Of a stretch of DNA of 33,405 nt, positions 1-8,694 are shown in pieces. Position 1 is the stretch's first letter; every line of letters starts with the position of its first letter. The notes below the pieces were generated by a model, which did no database searches, was not told the DNA's origin, and saw only the letters and a list, made by a program, of their open reading frames with translations. The DNA comes from Methanothrix sp. (GTDB lineage: Archaea > Halobacteriota > Methanosarcinia > Methanotrichales > Methanotrichaceae), in assembly GCA_029907715.1 (NCBI GenBank), contig JARYLI010000018.1:1-33405 (forward strand). Reading direction: 5' to 3'. The translations under genes and the position numbers were made by a program.

Positions 1-750
1 AGTCTGGTTGCATCACCGGAATCGCCACAGGTCGCGGGTGTGGTGGTTGCATGGACAGCGAATGCATCAGATCCTGATGGGGATGCGCTCGAGTACCAGT
101 TCATGGTGGATGGTAACGTTGTGAGGGACTGGTCTGCTGACAACACATGGACTTGGTCGACGACAGATGGAGATGTTGGATCTCACACTGTGACAGTTGC
201 TGTGAGGGATGGAAGGAACGAGCCTGTTTCCGCGTCATCCCAGTACACTGTAGAGGCCAGGGTAGTACCGAACAATCCGCCTGTGATCGATAGTCTGGTT
301 GCATCACCGGAATCGCCACAGGTCGCGGGTGTGGTGGTTGCATGGACAGCGAATGCATCAGATCCTGATGGGGATGCGCTCGAGTACCAGTTCATGGTGG
401 ATGGTAGCGTTGTGAGGGACTGGTCTGCTGAAAACACATGGACGTGGTCGACGACAGATGGAGATGTTGGATCTCACACTGTGACGGTTGCTGTGAGAGA
501 TGGAAGGAACGAGCCTGTTTCCGCGTCATCCCAGTACACTGTAGAGGCCAGGGTAGTACCGAACAATCCGCCTGTGATCGATAGTCTGGTTGCATCACCG
601 GAATCGCCACAGGTCGCGGGTGTGGTGGTTGCATGGACAGCGAATGCATCAGATCCTGACGGGGATGCGCTCGAGTACCAGTTCATGGTGGATGGTAACG
701 TTGTGAGGGACTGGTCTGCTGACAACACATGGACTTGGTCGACGACAGAG
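1..750 (+). repeat. Near-identical 291-bp tandem coding repeats
   Basis: Units begin at 1, 292 and 583 with the same sequence (agtctggttgcatcaccgg). The first two are complete and differ at only a few positions; the third diverges after about 748. The period of 291 bp equals 97 codons, so copy number can change without breaking the frame. DNA-level identity implies recent duplication or gene conversion. Confidence 0.95.
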
Positions 751-3700
751 CAGGATATCGGGGTGCACACGATAACCGCAGGCGTCAGGGACAACAGGCA
801 TGCCACAGATGGATCCGCTGACAGCACGGTCGCTGAGGAGTACGAGGTTCTCAGAGCTACTGCCCCAGAGAACGTCACTGTGGCTGCCAATGTCACAGAG
901 AACGTAACAGCGCCTGTGAACGTGACAGTTCCGATAAATGTGACGCCTCCGGTCTCAGAAGAGAACGTGGTTCTGCCGGTGATGAGCATATCCGGCTACA
1001 AGTTCAATGATCTGAATGGGAACGGCGTTATGGATTCCGGCGAGGCTGGCCTGGACGGGTGGACGATCGTTCTCACGATGCCAAACCAGACTGAAGTTCA
1101 GACAACAACCGGATTCGACGGATACTACCGGTTTGATGGTCTATCGCCAGGTCTGTACACTGTGAGAGAGCAGGCGAAAGCTGGCTGGGATCCGACAGCA
1201 TCTGAGAGCCAGCAGGTGAACCTGACAGATTCAGATGTGACGGGAATCAACTTCGGGAACATGGCCAGGACATACTACATAAGCGGCAGGCTGTTCGAGG
1301 ATGCGAATAACAACGGCGTCAACGACGGCGAGCCTGGCGTGAAGGGCTGGGAGGTACGCCTGACGAGGCCTGATGCCACTGAAATTGTTGCGACGACGGG
1401 AGACGATGGCTCTTACAGATTCGGGAATCTGACGCCTGGAGTATACACACTTAGAGTGGTTCTGCAGGCCGGCTGGAACGCGAGCGTTCCCTCCAGAGAG
1501 GTGAGCATCACAGACTCGGATCAGAGTGGTGTGGACTTTGGAGTCCAGATGATCGGTTTCACGGTATCAGGCAGGGTCTTCAGCGACCTCGATGCGAACG
1601 GCGTCAACGATGGCGAGCCCGGGCTTCCCGGGTGGACGGTTAAGCTGACGATGTCTGATGGGGAGGAGCGGACTGCAGTCACATCTGATGACGGCTTCTA
1701 CTCCTTCGATCATCTCAGGCCTGGCAGCTACAAAGTCGAGGCCGTGAAGCAGGACGGCTGGAGCCAGACCGCGCCTAAGACCGGCGTGCACACCGTGGAG
1801 GTCAGGGACTCAAGCTTGCCAAACGTCGACTTCGGGTATGCAGGTTTGAGATCGATATCAGGAGTTGTATTCAACGACATCAACGCCAACGGTGTCAGGG
1901 ACGAGGGCGAGCCTGGAGTCAGGGGCTGGAGCGTGACCCTCGAGCAGGGCGGAAACGTCACCTCCATGACTGAGACAGGAGCTGATGGATCATACAAATT
2001 CGAGGGTCTGTCCCCGGGCACCTACAGGGTGAAGCTGATCCCGCAGGACGGCTGGAAGGCGACAACTGAGAGCAGAGATCTGCAGCTCGGAACCGCTGAC
2101 TTGAGCTTCGATATCGGCGTTGCTGGAAGCCTGTCGATAAAGGGCATGAAGTACTACGATCTGAACGCAAACAAGGTCAGGGACGAGGGCGAGCCTGGGA
2201 TACCGGGAAGCGATGTGAACCTGATCGAGAACGGAAAGGTCGTGAGGAGCACAAAGACATCTGAGGACGGCTCGTACACATTCGATAACGTCGCGCCTGG
2301 AACTTACACGATCAGCGATCCTCTGCCTGAGGGCTATGTGGTTGTGACATCATCGACTATAACTGTGACCGTGACCACGAGCACAGTCCTTGATGCGAGC
2401 TTCGGTATAGCAGGCGTTTACACAATCTCAGGAAAGAAGTTCAACGATCTGAATGGCGATGGAAATGATGCTGGAGATCCAGGTATCCCCGGATGGGGAG
2501 TGGTACTTGACGGCACCACAACTCTGGGTGTGCACATAACGGAAACGCAGTACACAGGCTCTGACGGGTCATACACCTTCAGCAACATAGCACCGGGCAC
2601 ATACAAGATCAGCGAGCTCTCCAGACCTGGCTGGACGCAGACATACCCTGGAGGGGATGGATCACACACGGTCACAGTCACCAGCTCAAGCGTATCAGGA
2701 AAGAACTTCGGGAACAGGTATCTCTCGACGAAGGCATCCGTATGGGGAACAAAGTTCAACGATAAGAACAACAACGGTGTCAGGGATGCAGGGGAGCAGG
2801 GACTTCCAGGATGGGAGATAAAGATAAGCAACAGCACCTACACCAGGACAGCGATCACAGACAGCGACGGATGGTACAACTTCACAGGACTTGATGCAGG
2901 AACATACACAGTCACAGAGACCCTGAAGTCGGGCTGGAGCGTCACGAAACCGGCCGGTGGATCCTATTCGATAACGCTCAGCTCAGGCGAGACAAAGACC
3001 GGCGTAGACTTCGGCAATTACAAGTCTCTCCCGACAGGCGCGACGCTGACATCGGACAAAACAAGCCCGCAGAACGTCGGCACGACGGTGGTGTGGACAG
3101 CTAGCGCCACATCCACGGTCCCGCTGGAATACAGCTTCTGGCTCAAGGGTCCATCCACATCAGGACTCTGGCAGGAGAGGAGGAGCTGGTCCTCTGATAA
3201 CACATGGTCCTGGAACACCGCTGGGCTCCAGCCGGGCACCTATGATATCCGTGTATGGATCAGAGACAACTACCACAGCGATACCGGTGATGTGCAGGTC
3301 ACGAAGAGCTTCACTCTCAGGGAGACCAACAGGCCTCCGGAGCTGAGTCTGATAATGGTCGACAGGCCGAGCCCACAGTACCCTGGCGCCTGGGTCAGCT
3401 TCCGGGCTGTGGCACGCGATCCGGAGAGGGATCCGCTGCAGTACAAGTTCCTGCTTAAAGGACCTTCGACAGGATACACCTGGAGAGAGATGACATCCTG
3501 GACATCCAGGAACATATGGACATGGAGGACATCGTTCTTTGACATCGGTTTCAATGAGATAATGGTATACGTGAAGGATGGCAAGCACTCTCCAGATTAT
3601 GATGACAGGAAGACCTGCGGATACACGATCCTGGGATTCATACCGCGCCCGAACCTGCCGCCGGTGATAACGAGCTTCGGCTCGAGCCTCCCGAGCCCGC

Positions 3701-5472
3701 AGTACGCAGGGAGCACGGTGACATGGAGTGCTACGGCGATTGATCCTGAGGGATACCAGGTCTACTACAGGTTCATGCTGAACGGCCCGTCCACAGGCTA
3801 CACATGGAGGGTCGTGCAGGACTGGTCGCTCTCGAACACATGGACATGGAGGACATCCGATATTGACATCGGCAGGTCTCAGGTGGTGGTCCAGATCAGG
3901 GATGGTCTGCATGCACCACCCACGGGCTGGGATGACCAGGCCAGCGCGGCCTTCAGCATCGTGGCAAAGCCGAATCTTCCGCCTGTGATAACCTCGCTCA
4001 CGCCTGACAAACCAAGCCCACAGTCCAGCGGGACGGCGATCAAATGGACTGCAATGGCTACAGATCCTGATAGAGATCCGATCTACTACAGGTTCTGGCT
4101 TAAGGGCCCATCGACGGGGAACACGTGGCAGATAGTCAGGGACTGGTCGACCTCGAACACATGGACGTGGAGTTCGGATCTTGGAGATGCTGGCGATTAC
4201 ACGGTCTTCGTCTATGCCAGGGATGGAAAGCATGCGTCAGCGAACGCCTACGACAGCGCCAGGGGCCAGGTCTACAGGCTGCTCCAGCCGAGGATGGACA
4301 TCGTGACTGGCGCCCAGCTCAGGGGCCAGATCAAGGACTCACCCAGGCTGATATCCACGGACAGAGGGTTTGCGCTTGTCTGTCAGTCGTGGGAGCGTGG
4401 CAGGAGCAGCAACGGCGACATCAGGATACAGACGTATGATGCGTCTATGAAACCTCTGAGCAGCAAGCTTCTGACCAGCGACACTGCATACCAGGACAGG
4501 CCCTCAGTCGTCTATGACGGAAAGAACTACTATGTTGTGTACGTCTCCAACGAGAAGGGCAACATGGACATCTTCATGAAGAAGCTCGATCCGGGCCTGA
4601 ATGTGCTGGAGACGAGGCAGCTCACAACATCTGCGAGCGATCAGGACTCTCCGGCTCTGCTGAAGGTGGGGGATGATTTCTACCTGGCCTACCAGTCATG
4701 GGAGGGCGGCAAGAGCAGCAACGGTGACATCTACCTGACACGCTTCGACTCGACCTGGAAGCCTCTCAGGAGCGTGAGGCTCACAGCCGACAGTTACTAT
4801 CAGGACATCCCCTCCCTAGTGCTGGCCAGCGGCTACATCTACGTATCTTATGTGTCAGAGGATCGCGGGAATCTCGATGTGGTCGTCAAGAAGCTCGACA
4901 CGAACCTCAACCTGCTGGACACCAGGAGGCTGACAGGAGGATCCACAGATGAGGATCAGCCGTACCTGCTGTGGAGCAATGGTGAGTTCATGCTGGTGTA
5001 CAGGAGTGAAGATGGGATAGCGCTGGAGAGGTACAGGCGCGACTGGAGCAGCATCGATAAGAGCCTCGTGCTGAGCGGAGATCTCAGCTGGCCATCAATC
5101 GCCTGTGGCAATGGACGTTACTGGCTGTCATACGTAGATGGCAACAGCATTTACGCCACGCCTCTGAAGATAACAAGCGCGCTGCCGCCGTGCGATGTAA
5201 GGGCGAGCTTCAGCTCCAGGAGAGCAAACAGGGACTACCTGATGACTCTGAGGTTCTACAACAACTACGGCGAACTCACAGACCCGACGTTCCTGAAGAT
5301 GACCTGGAGCCCGCAGGATGCAGCCACGCAGGGAAGCACTCTCAAGAGGGTTGCAACAGGCATGTACAGGATGCGCTCGACATTTGGCGCTCCAGGGGAG
5401 AAGAGCTTCAGGGTGACAGCAACCGTTGATGGAAGCCAGCTCGACAAGACCATCAGGGTCAGAGTGAGATGA
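1..5472 (+). CDS. Giant modular surface protein (Ig-like, SdrD B-like and propeller-like repeats), 5' end outside window
   Basis: The reading frame is open from base 1, and the first residues repeat a sequence found again 97 residues later, so the gene starts upstream of the window. Order of parts: three 97-residue Ig/PKD-like repeats (about 1-840), a linker rich in NVT glycosylation sequons (about 860-960), seven SdrD/Cna B-like domains each opening with a motif like FNDLNGNG and closing near TxTGxDGxYxF (about 985-3020), four Ig-like repeats carrying KGPSTG and a TWTWRT-type strand (about 3030-4290), a region of recurring strands such as QSWERGRSSNGDI that suggests a beta-propeller (about 4300-5180), and a C-terminal beta domain. 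No transmembrane anchor is visible at the C-terminus. Asp/Asn-rich loops in the SdrD domains resemble calcium sites of that family. A cell-surface, sheath or adhesion role is inferred; the exact function is unknown. A terminator follows directly. Confidence 0.9.
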   Translation, partial: SLVASPESPQVAGVVVAWTANASDPDGDALEYQFMVDGNVVRDWSADNTWTWSTTDGDVGSHTVTVAVRDGRNEPVSASSQYTVEARVVPNNPPVIDSLVASPESPQVAGVVVAWTANASDPDGDALEYQFMVDGSVVRDWSAENTWTWSTTDGDVGSHTVTVAVRDGRNEPVSASSQYTVEARVVPNNPPVIDSLVASPESPQVAGVVVAWTANASDPDGDALEYQFMVDGNVVRDWSADNTWTWSTTEQDIGVHTITAGVRDNRHATDGSADSTVAEEYEVLRATAPENVTVAANVTENVTAPVNVTVPINVTPPVSEENVVLPVMSISGYKFNDLNGNGVMDSGEAGLDGWTIVLTMPNQTEVQTTTGFDGYYRFDGLSPGLYTVREQAKAGWDPTASESQQVNLTDSDVTGINFGNMARTYYISGRLFEDANNNGVNDGEPGVKGWEVRLTRPDATEIVATTGDDGSYRFGNLTPGVYTLRVVLQAGWNASVPSREVSITDSDQSGVDFGVQMIGFTVSGRVFSDLDANGVNDGEPGLPGWTVKLTMSDGEERTAVTSDDGFYSFDHLRPGSYKVEAVKQDGWSQTAPKTGVHTVEVRDSSLPNVDFGYAGLRSISGVVFNDINANGVRDEGEPGVRGWSVTLEQGGNVTSMTETGADGSYKFEGLSPGTYRVKLIPQDGWKATTESRDLQLGTADLSFDIGVAGSLSIKGMKYYDLNANKVRDEGEPGIPGSDVNLIENGKVVRSTKTSEDGSYTFDNVAPGTYTISDPLPEGYVVVTSSTITVTVTTSTVLDASFGIAGVYTISGKKFNDLNGDGNDAGDPGIPGWGVVLDGTTTLGVHITETQYTGSDGSYTFSNIAPGTYKISELSRPGWTQTYPGGDGSHTVTVTSSSVSGKNFGNRYLSTKASVWGTKFNDKNNNGVRDAGEQGLPGWEIKISNSTYTRTAITDSDGWYNFTGLDAGTYTVTETLKSGWSVTKPAGGSYSITLSSGETKTGVDFGNYKSLPTGATLTSDKTSPQNVGTTVVWTASATSTVPLEYSFWLKGPSTSGLWQERRSWSSDNTWSWNTAGLQPGTYDIRVWIRDNYHSDTGDVQVTKSFTLRETNRPPELSLIMVDRPSPQYPGAWVSFRAVARDPERDPLQYKFLLKGPSTGYTWREMTSWTSRNIWTWRTSFFDIGFNEIMVYVKDGKHSPDYDDRKTCGYTILGFIPRPNLPPVITSFGSSLPSPQYAGSTVTWSATAIDPEGYQVYYRFMLNGPSTGYTWRVVQDWSLSNTWTWRTSDIDIGRSQVVVQIRDGLHAPPTGWDDQASAAFSIVAKPNLPPVITSLTPDKPSPQSSGTAIKWTAMATDPDRDPIYYRFWLKGPSTGNTWQIVRDWSTSNTWTWSSDLGDAGDYTVFVYARDGKHASANAYDSARGQVYRLLQPRMDIVTGAQLRGQIKDSPRLISTDRGFALVCQSWERGRSSNGDIRIQTYDASMKPLSSKLLTSDTAYQDRPSVVYDGKNYYVVYVSNEKGNMDIFMKKLDPGLNVLETRQLTTSASDQDSPALLKVGDDFYLAYQSWEGGKSSNGDIYLTRFDSTWKPLRSVRLTADSYYQDIPSLVLASGYIYVSYVSEDRGNLDVVVKKLDTNLNLLDTRRLTGGSTDEDQPYLLWSNGEFMLVYRSEDGIALERYRRDWSSIDKSLVLSGDLSWPSIACGNGRYWLSYVDGNSIYATPLKITSALPPCDVRASFSSRRANRDYLMTLRFYNNYGELTDPTFLKMTWSPQDAATQGSTLKRVATGMYRMRSTFGAPGEKSFRVTATVDGSQLDKTIRVRVR

Positions 5473-5507: not shown

Positions 5508-5570
5508 GTGAATTTTTGAACCTGCGACAGACTCTGAATCTTCGGGATTCTGCGGCGCACGTTCGATGCG

Positions 5571-5584
5571 GAAACCTCTTTATC
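5571..5584 (+). promoter_or_regulatory. TATA box of larB
   Basis: The sequence aaacctctttatcc resembles an archaeal BRE/TATA element. Its centre lies about 28 nt before the GTG at 5608, which would make the larB transcript leaderless. It overlaps the codons that an upstream ATG at 5566 would use. Confidence 0.5.
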
Positions 5585-5607
5585 CATTCCATCCATACCA
5601 TTCCCAC

Positions 5608-6396
5608 GTGACCGGGCTTCGTGATATCCTTGAGAGGTTCTCGCGGGGAGAGATTGATTTAGAGGAGGCACTGAGCGGTATACGGCTTCTCAGCTACAGA
5701 GAGGTTGGATCGATCGCAAAGATAGATCACAGAAGGGAGGACAGGATAGATGTGCCTGAGGCGGTTCTCGCTGAGGGGAAAAGGCCAGAGGATCTTGCAA
5801 GGATTGCACTGGCGCATCTCGAGTCCGCGGGTAAGGTCATAGTGACAAGAGTCTCAGCTGATCATCTCAGTGCGCTTAGATCAATGGATCTCCCTGAAGG
5901 CGCTGAGATAGTGTGGTATGAGCATGCGAGGGCGGTTCTTCTGAGAGCAGTTCAGGTCGAGAGGACAGGTGGTAGAGTGGGAGTGCTCAGCGCTGGAACC
6001 GCTGACATACCGGTCGCGGAGGAGGCCAGGGTCACAGCAGAGGCAATGGGCTGCGAGGTCGTGACAGAATATGATGTCGGCGTCGCAGGCATACACCGTC
6101 TCTTTCCAGCGATGGAGCGGATGGCAGGTGTGGATGCGGTGGTCGTAGCTGCTGGCCGTGAGGGGACGCTACCGGCCGTTGTCGCAGGCCTGACAGACGC
6201 TCCGGTCATAGGCCTTCCAGTCTCAACAGGATATGGGGCTGGGGGAAACGGGATCGCTGCGCTTCTATCGATGCTCCAGTCCTGCTCAGTGCTGGCGGTG
6301 GTTAACATAGATGCTGGCTTTGTCGCAGGCGCGTTTGCAGCCAGGATAGCAAACAGGATCGCCAGGAGAAAACTTTCCGAAGCCAGGCAGCATTGA
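5608..6396 (+). CDS. larB: LarB-family protein (pyridinium-3,5-biscarboxylate mononucleotide synthase)
   Basis: About 262 residues. The C-terminal half is PurE-like, with the LarB-typical run VLSAGTADIPVAEEA, the segment YDVGVAGIHRLF and a glycine-rich GYGAGGNGIAAL motif. Characterised LarB carboxylates and hydrolyses nicotinic acid adenine dinucleotide in the first step of nickel-pincer cofactor synthesis. The N-terminal part (RDILERFSRGEI) also matches the family. I chose the GTG at 5608 because LarB proteins usually begin just before LRDIL and a TATA box sits at the right distance; an in-frame ATG at 5566 would add 14 unconserved residues. No larA, larC or larE is visible nearby. Family assignment is firm; the substrate role in this organism is inferred. 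Confidence 0.88.
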   Translation: MTGLRDILERFSRGEIDLEEALSGIRLLSYREVGSIAKIDHRREDRIDVPEAVLAEGKRPEDLARIALAHLESAGKVIVTRVSADHLSALRSMDLPEGAEIVWYEHARAVLLRAVQVERTGGRVGVLSAGTADIPVAEEARVTAEAMGCEVVTEYDVGVAGIHRLFPAMERMAGVDAVVVAAGREGTLPAVVAGLTDAPVIGLPVSTGYGAGGNGIAALLSMLQSCSVLAVVNIDAGFVAGAFAARIANRIARRKLSEARQH

Positions 6397-6399
6397 GAA

Positions 6400-6484
6400 A
6401 AGTTATTTATACTATCAATGCTCTGAAGCACCGCTGAGCGGGTATATTTATTGTTGTAAATAACCCCCACTCCCCTACCCGCTC
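6400..6484 (+). promoter_or_regulatory. TATA-like element and stem-loop downstream of larB
   Basis: A TATA-like gttatttatact lies at about 6402-6413 with no ORF behind it. At 6438-6482 gcgggta pairs with tacccgc, enclosing a second small stem (attta / taaat). This may be a promoter for a non-coding transcript running into the inverted-repeat element, or the transcript end of larB. Both readings are speculative. Confidence 0.3.
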
Positions 6485-6508
6485 CATGTCTTTCATTTTA
6501 CAGCGCTT

Positions 6509-6760
6509 CGTTCTTATCCATCTGATAACTTGCCCAAAGAGGCACTGGTACTGCTATGCGTTCATGGCAGATGAATGAATGCTTACAGCCAAACCACACA
6601 GCCTCCAAGTTGCCAACCACATAAGAGAGCAGCGCTCGCTCTTATGTGCGTAGCAACTTGCAGAGCATGCAATGTGGTTGATGAAAGCATTCATTTGTCG
6701 AAACGAACGCATAGCATGACCCCCTGCTCCTTCGGGCAAGTCATCAAACGGATAAGAGCG
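6509..6760. repeat. Long imperfect inverted repeat (about 125-bp arms)
   Basis: The left arm from 6509 (cgttcttatccatctgat) aligns along its length with the reverse complement of the right arm ending at 6760 (cgctcttatccgtttgat). Further matching blocks are acttgccc, gctatgcgttc, atgaatgctt, aaccaca and caagttg. The apex is a perfect stem cataagag (6620-6627) with ctcttatg (6639-6646). No credible ORF is present. It fills the gap between larB and ogt. It could be a MITE-like element, or encode a long hairpin RNA. Confidence 0.8.
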
Positions 6761-6782
6761 AGTCATCAAATGGATAAGAGCG
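6739..6782 (+). repeat. 22-bp tandem duplication at the edge of the inverted repeat
   Basis: The outer end of the right arm is present twice in direct tandem (6739-6760 and 6761-6782), with one mismatch (aaacgg versus aaatgg). This resembles a terminal duplication left by slippage or imprecise insertion. Confidence 0.75.
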
Positions 6783-6849
6783 TTCACGGTAAAAAATCCG
6801 TCTGGAAGTGGCATTAACGGCACACCTGAGTTGGAAGGAGCTGCATATC

Positions 6850-7311
6850 TCAGCTGATACGAGTGCGTGACATCTGGTCACTGGATATTTTTTCGTGCTC
6901 GATCGCGAGCAGCTGCAGCTTGATATCGATTCCCTGGGTGTATCCGCCGGGGCCATTCGATGCCACAACCCGGTGGCAGGGTATCATGATCGGAAAAGGA
7001 TTCCTGCGCAGAGCTGCACCGACGGCCCTTGCGGCCCCGGGCCTTCCTGCGATCTTCGCGACATCACTGTAGGTTGCGGTGGATCCGCGAGGGATGTTGA
7101 GTACTGCACGGTAAACGGCCATCTGAAAATCCGTACACCAGCTCAGATCAAGATCGAGATCCGGGCGCGGGCCTCCCATCATGTGGTCTGCTATCCGCGC
7201 TGCTCTCTCTGAGAACTCCAGGTCTGGGGCGGTTCTGGAGAGGATTATGCGTTTTACAGTTCCTCCTGACTCCTCGACGATCACATAAAGATCGATGTCA
7301 TCCAGATACAC
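6850..7311 (-). CDS. ogt: Methylated-DNA--protein-cysteine methyltransferase (O6-alkylguanine repair)
   Basis: About 153 residues. The family active-site motif is present as IPCHRVV, followed by the GGYTQGIDIKLQLL segment that ends the alkyltransferase fold; RGSTATYSDVA is the helix-turn-helix region. The protein transfers alkyl groups from O6-alkylguanine to its own cysteine and is consumed. I chose the GTG at 7311, which gives a start at YLDDIDLYVIVEE; the frame runs further upstream to 7446, but that part overlaps the preceding gene and is not alkyltransferase-like. It lies about 20 nt downstream of the phosphoesterase gene and is probably cotranscribed with it. Confidence 0.9.
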   Translation of the reverse strand: MYLDDIDLYVIVEESGGTVKRIILSRTAPDLEFSERAARIADHMMGGPRPDLDLDLSWCTDFQMAVYRAVLNIPRGSTATYSDVAKIAGRPGAARAVGAALRRNPFPIMIPCHRVVASNGPGGYTQGIDIKLQLLAIEHEKISSDQMSRTRIS

Positions 7312-7331
7312 GCCCCCTCTGCTGAGCTTTT

Positions 7332-7862
7332 TTACTTCTGCAGAATCTCCCTGAAAGTCTCGCACCTCCCCAGCTCGACGATCTCGACATCTCTCGTTGA
7401 AGTATCCAGTATCGCAACGCTCCGGATACCTGTCAGATGCCCCCATATCTCTCCAGGGTTCACCACCAGAGTTCTTCCCTCACGGCGGACCTCTGCCCTG
7501 TGTGTGTGCCCGCGAACGACGATGTCGTACAGACCGGATGCCACCACGGCCCTCACAAGAGCCTCCTCTGTTCCATGGAGCATGGCGATCCTCAATCCAT
7601 CCACCTCTAACTCGCCGAAATCTCCGAGATACTCGCCCCCGAACCTCTTGAAGTATCTGGAAAGACCGACGCGGTCGCCGTCGTTGTTTCCGTAGACGAG
7701 TCTCACAGGAATGCCGTAGCCATCGAATAGATACGCGTTCCCGGATCCGATCACGTCTCCGGCATGCAGCACCAGCTCCACATTTCTTTTAGAGAATACG
7801 CTCAGAGCTTCCTTGATGCCCCGAAAGTTATCGTGAGAGTCTGACATGATCCCTATGAGCAT
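7332..7862 (-). CDS. YfcE/MJ0936-type metallophosphoesterase
   Basis: About 176 residues. All calcineurin-like phosphoesterase motifs are visible in order: DSHDN near the N-terminus, HAGDVIGSG, YGNNDGD, LHGTEE and GHTHRAEV, followed by NPGEI. These bind two divalent metals in the family, which hydrolyses phosphodiesters; the natural substrate cannot be told. The start is the ATG at 7862 giving MLIGIMSDSHDN, preceded by a ribosome-binding sequence gggtgat; the longer frame to 7994 adds unrelated residues. A TATA-like ttaaatt lies about 35 nt upstream on the minus strand. It is first in a two-gene unit with ogt. Confidence 0.88.
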   Translation of the reverse strand: MLIGIMSDSHDNFRGIKEALSVFSKRNVELVLHAGDVIGSGNAYLFDGYGIPVRLVYGNNDGDRVGLSRYFKRFGGEYLGDFGELEVDGLRIAMLHGTEEALVRAVVASGLYDIVVRGHTHRAEVRREGRTLVVNPGEIWGHLTGIRSVAILDTSTRDVEIVELGRCETFREILQK

Positions 7863-8225: not shown

Positions 8226-8439
8226 TACCTTCACCTCCACACCTGTTTTTACATGTTAATGTAGCGCAATAATAATTAATAATCATTACGGTGTTGCAGG
8301 CACGCCAGAGCATGCAATAAGTTCCTGGTTGTGCTGTGGTGAATGATGTTTGCGAATCCGATAGAATATGACTAATTCATACAAATTGTATTTATAGTAA
8401 AAACAGATAGCGTTCGACCATATAGGCTTTAATTATTCC
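8226..8439. other. Intergenic region, AT-rich, with a near-palindrome
   Basis: This stretch holds the putative promoter of the leftward 39-aa gene and, at 8379-8391, the near-palindrome atacaaattgtat followed by a TATA-like tttatagtaaaa on the plus strand. No ORF follows that TATA before the repeat element at 8440. I see no tRNA or other gene. Confidence 0.4.
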
Positions 8440-8560
8440 GCTCTTATGTATTCAGCAACTTGAAGGATATGCAGGCCGGTTGCTGAATGCACTCATTCGC
8501 TCGCCACGAGCGCACAGCGTGACTGGTGCTTCTTCGGGCAAGTTATCAGATGGATATTGG
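8440..8560 (+). repeat. Half copy of the 6509-6760 inverted-repeat element
   Basis: The segment aligns over its whole length with the right arm of the long inverted repeat. Shared blocks are gctcttatgt, agcaactt, atgca, ggttg, cattc, cgcacagcgtgac and cttcgggcaagt, ending atcagatggat. No complementary left arm is present. A single arm without its partner suggests a decayed copy or deletion at the symmetry centre. Confidence 0.75.
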
Positions 8561-8610
8561 ACTTGAGTCCTGATAGCAGTACTGAGGCGAGATAAGACTA
8601 CTAAGTCCAA
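8557..8610. repeat. Short inverted repeat upstream of thrC
   Basis: ttggactt (8557-8564) is complementary to aagtccaa (8603-8610) across a 38-base interval. It overlaps the edge of the half element and lies about 85 nt before the thrC TATA box. It may be a hairpin or a chance match. Confidence 0.35.
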
Positions 8611-8694
8611 TTCTACACATGTCGATCTTAACCGATGACGCATGGAGGTCTGTCAGCCCCATGGACTCTGTTCGGGTCGCACCGAAGCCGCACA

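Follow-up and report, generated by a model that had tools for sequence, protein, structure and literature searches.

A long inverted repeat in a Methanothrix genome consists of two opposite copies of a MITE, most likely mobilised by an IS1595-family transposase

The inverted repeat and its surroundings

The stretch of DNA analysed here, called the window (33,405 nucleotides), is contig C18 of the host genome G000, an assembly of 2.0 Mb in 55 contigs. The LarB-like protein encoded in it is 93% identical to a counterpart from Methanothrix sp. (L094). The gene for this protein, larB, is convergent with ogt, and a long inverted repeat at 6509-6760 lies between the two (Table 1). Positions 40-5472 are occupied by an ORF of 1,810 aa with many SdrD_B-like, Ig-like and carboxypeptidase-regulatory-like domains, the product of which is probably a large surface protein. 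No match to Rfam was obtained for the window, and a search for tRNA and tmRNA genes found none.

The inverted repeat had been described in an earlier note as a hairpin element of about 250 bp with no ORF, a 22-bp tandem duplication at its outer end, and a related arm near 8440-8560. The matches between the arms were confirmed, and the predicted fold of 6480-6790 (-138.5 kcal/mol) was far more stable than expected by chance (shuffled mean -81.5; z = -11.6), with none of 100 shuffles equal to it. The tandem duplication was found as described, at 6739-6760 and 6761-6782. The related arm is also present, at 8439-8556, but its right end lacks the last 6 bases. As to coding sequence, the element is in fact overlapped by two mechanically called ORFs (80 and 89 aa), although neither shows any sign of being a gene. 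The element itself is real; the mobile unit, however, is not the whole hairpin but the single arm of ~124 bp, which has terminal inverted repeats of its own. The inverted repeat is two adjacent, opposite copies (units A and B) of one MITE, a small non-autonomous mobile element, and the big hairpin is formed because these two related copies, 75% identical, stand in opposite orientation. Both MITE end motifs were found at three sites each in the window (at most 3 mismatches), compared with 0.01 and 0.00 expected.

Table 1. Features of the window at and around the inverted repeat
Feature	Position	Strand or orientation	Remarks
larB	5566-6396	convergent with 6850-7446	AIR carboxylase domain, LarB-like
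Target-site duplication of unit A, left copy (CAGCGCTT)	6501-6508	.	flanks agree 7/8
Unit A, MITE copy, subfamily V	6509-6629	-	93.5% identical to subfamily consensus
Target-site duplication of unit A, right copy (CAGCGCTC)	6630-6637	.	flanks agree 7/8
Unit B, MITE copy, subfamily II	6637-6760	+	96% identical to subfamily consensus
Extra 22 bp repeating the MITE right end	6761-6782	+	tandem spacing 22, right-end motif match
ogt	6850-7446	convergent with 5566-6396	O6-methylguanine methyltransferase domain
Unit C, MITE copy, subfamily I	8439-8556	+	92.7% to subfamily consensus; right end without last 6 bases

Units A, B and C were 71-75% identical to one another and 93-96% identical to the consensus of their own subfamilies. 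Base 6637 is both the last base of the right duplication copy of unit A and the first base of unit B. No target-site duplication was found for unit B itself or for unit C. The extra 22 bp could be explained either as the remnant of a further copy or by a plain terminal tandem duplication of 22 bp. In the first case, a deletion or recombination event involving unit B and the further copy would later have removed the duplication of unit B. Units A and B were both absent after the aligned end of larB in four other species (G005, G003, G001 and G002; G003 is identical to L094 at the larB site), and the ogt stretch was not found in G004. The sequence after larB differs among the species, so the empty window site could not be read base by base. 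Unit C is flanked by two other dispersed repeats, 8340-8438 and 8557-8660. With BLAST, the former had 12 hits and the latter 22 in 336 kb of host-genome stretches, and MITE copies elsewhere sit inside repeats like these.

Copies, subfamilies and insertion sites of the MITE

A search of the host genome with 6509-6782 gave 93 matches, and most of the strong ones spanned only ~124 bases. These also matched the second arm in reverse orientation, and each arm is therefore an imperfect palindrome. The MITE is without evident coding capacity, and its ends are imperfect inverted repeats: CGCTCTTATGTnnnnnGCAACTTG at the left and, as the reverse complement, CGCTCTTATCCATnTGATnACTTG at the right. The exact 13-mer of the right end, ATGGATAAGAGCG, was present at 114 sites in the 2.0 Mb of the host genome, where the reversed control was found at none, so the further copies that the earlier note had proposed to look for do exist. 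In the other five genomes of the genus the 13-mer was present at 82, 46, 40, 11 and 1 sites (control, 0); the count of 46 is that of G002, which is assembled as one contig of 1,879,471 bases. The 124-bp unit was detected in 6 of the 21 genomes searched, namely in all 6 of the genus and in none of the 15 outside it, with G003 giving a single match (E = 7.9e-6). Among the genomes searched, the MITE family is thus confined to a single methanogen genus, identified from named relatives as Methanothrix. Among viral contigs, five had the right-end motif but none of the five had a left end, and these matches were judged to be due to chance for that reason.

The census in the host genome covered 336 kb of stretches around copies, the sites being those among the matches listed (100 of 114). 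With one strand kept for each palindromic double call, 121 pairs of left and right ends were called, 117 shorter than 500 bp and 78 measuring 123-125 bp; none of the pairs above 500 bp had a target duplication. Longer variants of the MITE carry inserts, one of them another repeat. The standard-length set consisted of 86 copies of 114-128 nt and does not include unit C because its right end is cut. Clustering of the copies at 85% produced groups of 38, 23, 12, 6 and 3 members and 4 singletons. The mean identity of 95% in the second group, subfamily II, suggests that it stems from a younger burst.

Some other repeated sequences were seen in the same stretches and in related genomes. An apparent second MITE family, a 117-bp repeat (ACTATAGTCCTTTGCG...GCGGAATACTATA) with 24 hits in the fetched stretches, was seen at L066 and at C2:93939-94202 of the host genome, among others, and is nested in some copies of the present MITE and in an IS1595 derivative, L239. 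Three MITE copies in G002:C1, at 1641513, 1648398 and 1655283, are spaced by exactly 6,885 bases, apparently as a tandem triplication of a 6.9-kb stretch. The locus L037 (G005:C105:14157-17278) and 73-76 kb of contig C2 of G000 were 97.4% alike over 3.1 kb, two MITE copies included, and the remaining G005 stretches compared with G000 were mostly at 85-95%. Recent exchange or shared insertions are possible reasons for the likeness at L037.

An 8-bp target-site duplication, which the earlier note had also proposed to look for, was perfect in 48 of the 86 copies, agreed at 7/8 in 15 and fell below 7/8 in 23. When flanks of different copies were paired as a control, agreement of at least 7/8 was reached in 22 of 7,310 pairs. 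Perfect duplications were found as well in G005 (6 of 11 loci examined), G002 (14 of 31), G001 (4 of 6) and G004 (4 of 8). In the target consensus (n = 73), the first two positions from either edge are A or T and the third is C or G. For an empty-site test, the flanks were joined with a single copy of the target, and only BLAST alignments spanning the junction were used. Joined flanks matched relatives or other repeats with no gap near the junction: those of C5:73750 were 90% identical to L037 across 180 columns, and the junctions of C1:8260 (to L263) and C12:170 were also free of gaps. In the alignments of C3:24546, C4:51091 and C2:144760, gaps fell on the junction or close to it, and these cases are not clean.

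The position of the copies relative to genes was assessed by removing the element with one target copy and scoring an ORF of at least 150 aa that spanned the restored site. The test took 49 of the 73 copies with a duplication, the other 24 being dropped as their flanks were too short. A spanning ORF was found in 10 of the 49; for random sites the share with such an ORF was 0.90 within the window and 0.85 within the fetched stretches. The MITE family is mainly intergenic. Selection would be expected to leave this pattern, and the pattern is no proof of function.

The IS1595-family insertion sequence

An IS1595-family transposase was identified in the host genome (PF12760, PF12762; NF033547). 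Its Zn-ribbon and DDE domains are in two different frames, and the gene is therefore broken. Among the transposase matches in the genus, L070 is split between two frames and the rest are fragments. Across six genomes of the genus, the sole match to PF12762, the IS1595 DDE domain, was C10:890-1264 of the host genome. Searches with both parts of the transposase detected pieces in G000, G005, G001 and G004 and a weak match in G009, and nothing in the other 45 of 50 genomes of the family; the second part had matches in 5 of 237 genomes of the class. No IS1595 match was found in G002 despite the abundance of exact MITE right ends there, and no intact IS1595 transposase gene with MITE-like ends was seen in the genus, possibly due to loss of an intact copy at contig breaks. 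An intact partner IS in the same genome is usual for a MITE but not required. We also used the ends to look for an autonomous element, in 336 kb of G000 (pairs up to 3.2 kb) and, by eye, among 100 of the 120 end matches in G002, and no candidate with matching duplications was found in either.

The left end of the IS, from three copies, reads CGCTC(T/A)TATTGAT(T/C)TAGCGA, and the right end CGCTCATCACCTCATAACAACTTA. The left end of L070 has decayed, and the likeness to the MITE ends is visible in the other copies. The IS left end and the left end of subfamily I were identical at 19 of 24 positions, in register with the terminus; this score was reached by 1 of 616,358 unmasked 24-mers, and 5 reached 18 or more, one of them being an IS end. 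At the right end, only 15 of 24 positions agreed with the MITE ends. A 611-bp IS1595 derivative of G005, L239, starts with CGCTCTTAT; its 8-bp duplication, AGCACTTA, is perfect. The scan gave no recognisable target duplication for the L070 copy, and IS1595 relatives outside the genus (L271, L272 and L274) had no convincing ends or duplications. One literature search aimed at 8-bp duplications in IS1595 gave nothing; a duplication of this length is listed in PMC3852290 for an IS1595-associated MITE. The link between the MITE and IS1595 is rated likely but unproved because of this mixed record, with 19 of 24 positions shared at the left end and only 15 at the right, and a duplication at L239 but none at L070.

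The earlier proposal of a small non-autonomous mobile element was borne out by the presence of more than 100 copies, the 8-bp duplications, the empty sites and the related insertion sequence. The MITE was most likely moved in trans by an IS1595-family transposase, which would bind the ends common to IS and MITE, the insertion duplicating 8 target bases. The IS1595-family IS would have been the source of this transposase, which appears to have decayed since. Taken together, we are confident that 6509-6782 consists of two opposite copies of the ~124-bp MITE and a 22-bp end fragment, and that the family was most likely moved by a transposase of the IS1595 family.

Alternative explanations and related elements

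The lack of an intact IS1595 partner, the poorer agreement of the right ends and the richness of G002 in MITE copies without any IS1595 match could be explained by mobilisation through another IS family, lost or unrecognised, with the likeness to the IS1595 ends being convergent or historical. The close match of the left ends in register with the terminus and the same duplication length in the IS1595 derivative argue against this, and ISL3, another family with an 8-bp duplication, had no match in any of the 6 genomes of the genus. We consider such a mobiliser unlikely. A one-off local inverted duplication might be suggested by the adjoining of two related arms, and the earlier note had held that absence of other copies and of a transcript would indicate such an event. 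It is practically refuted by the more than 100 copies elsewhere, and the two arms belong to different subfamilies, being much closer to their own consensus sequences (93.5% and 96%) than to each other (75%).

The earlier note had also offered a long hairpin RNA gene, in which case the fold would be conserved. The inverted repeat does have a very stable predicted fold. A joint RNAalifold fold of the 86 copies contained hardly any pairs, and the subfamilies were therefore folded separately. The inner pairs of the subfamily-I fold were kept in 83% of cells across the 86 copies, compared with 22-42% when the pairs were slid; cells with double changes numbered 42 against a shuffled mean of 26, and the paired share was slightly above all 200 shuffles (0.83 vs 0.82). 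However, 17 of the 31 inner pairs had a nonstandard majority pair in one subfamily or more, the pairs with double changes were not above shuffles (8 vs a mean of 10.6), and the subfamilies have different folds of their own, so that inner pairing varies among them with no coherent compensatory change. Shared ancestry can account for most of the pairing, and the outer pairs, kept in 98% of cells (86-copy alignment with unit B as reference), are the conserved transposon ends. With the lack of an Rfam match and the absence of the units from this site in relatives, an RNA gene is very improbable, although there may be a weak constraint on the inner fold. It is also improbable that a former MITE has been co-opted for a host function such as bidirectional termination of transcription between larB and ogt. 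The placement of the unit pair between convergent genes, its strong hairpin and the avoidance of genes by the copies would fit this role; against it, the units are missing from the site in four related species, and selection alone would produce the same avoidance.

The preferred reading of a MITE family with an IS1595-family partner allows a wider scenario, in which the family outlived its sole transposase, the partner having decayed throughout the genus. As the MITE persists in more than a hundred copies and subfamily II looks young, there would then be a hidden intact source or a substitute enzyme, with some copies perhaps serving as hairpin terminators between convergent genes. We regard this combination as unlikely. 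What can be said is that a conspicuous hairpin is explained as two copies of a mini-transposon, and that this methanogen genus gains an abundant MITE family, one whose likely partner was found only as broken or partial copies. In annotation, such pieces are best labelled mobile elements and not RNA genes. The presence or absence of copies can serve as a marker for distinguishing Methanothrix species.

No MITE family of Methanothrix or Methanosaeta was found in the literature searched, an ISfinder entry being possible, and Methanosaeta is unmentioned in the main text of PMC3852290. Table 4 of that paper gives an IS1595-associated MITE of Haloquadratum walsbyi (partner ISHwa6) with 165 bp, 7 copies, IR 25 and DR 8. 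From this description, it resembles the present family in being archaeal, associated with IS1595 and geneless, with inverted ends and an 8-bp duplication, and is set apart by its host lineage, its size and its far lower copy number. The bacterial MITEs ERIC, Correia/NEMIS and RUP, of 100-200 bp as outlined in PMC2229807, share the size, palindromic fold, intergenic scatter, terminal inverted repeats and target duplications; according to the same review these elements mostly have TA at their ends, whereas the Methanothrix family has CG ends and an 8-bp duplication. The IS1595 elements of the same genus (L070, L235, L239 and L275) share with the MITE the ACTT register and a terminal CGCTC, which reads CGCTCTTAT at several of their left ends, and one derivative also shares the 8-bp duplication; they differ in their length of ~1 kb with a broken transposase gene, and no internal similarity to the MITE was seen. 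The Methanothrix elements make up a new family within a well-known class of mobile DNA, an ordinary case that is well supported.
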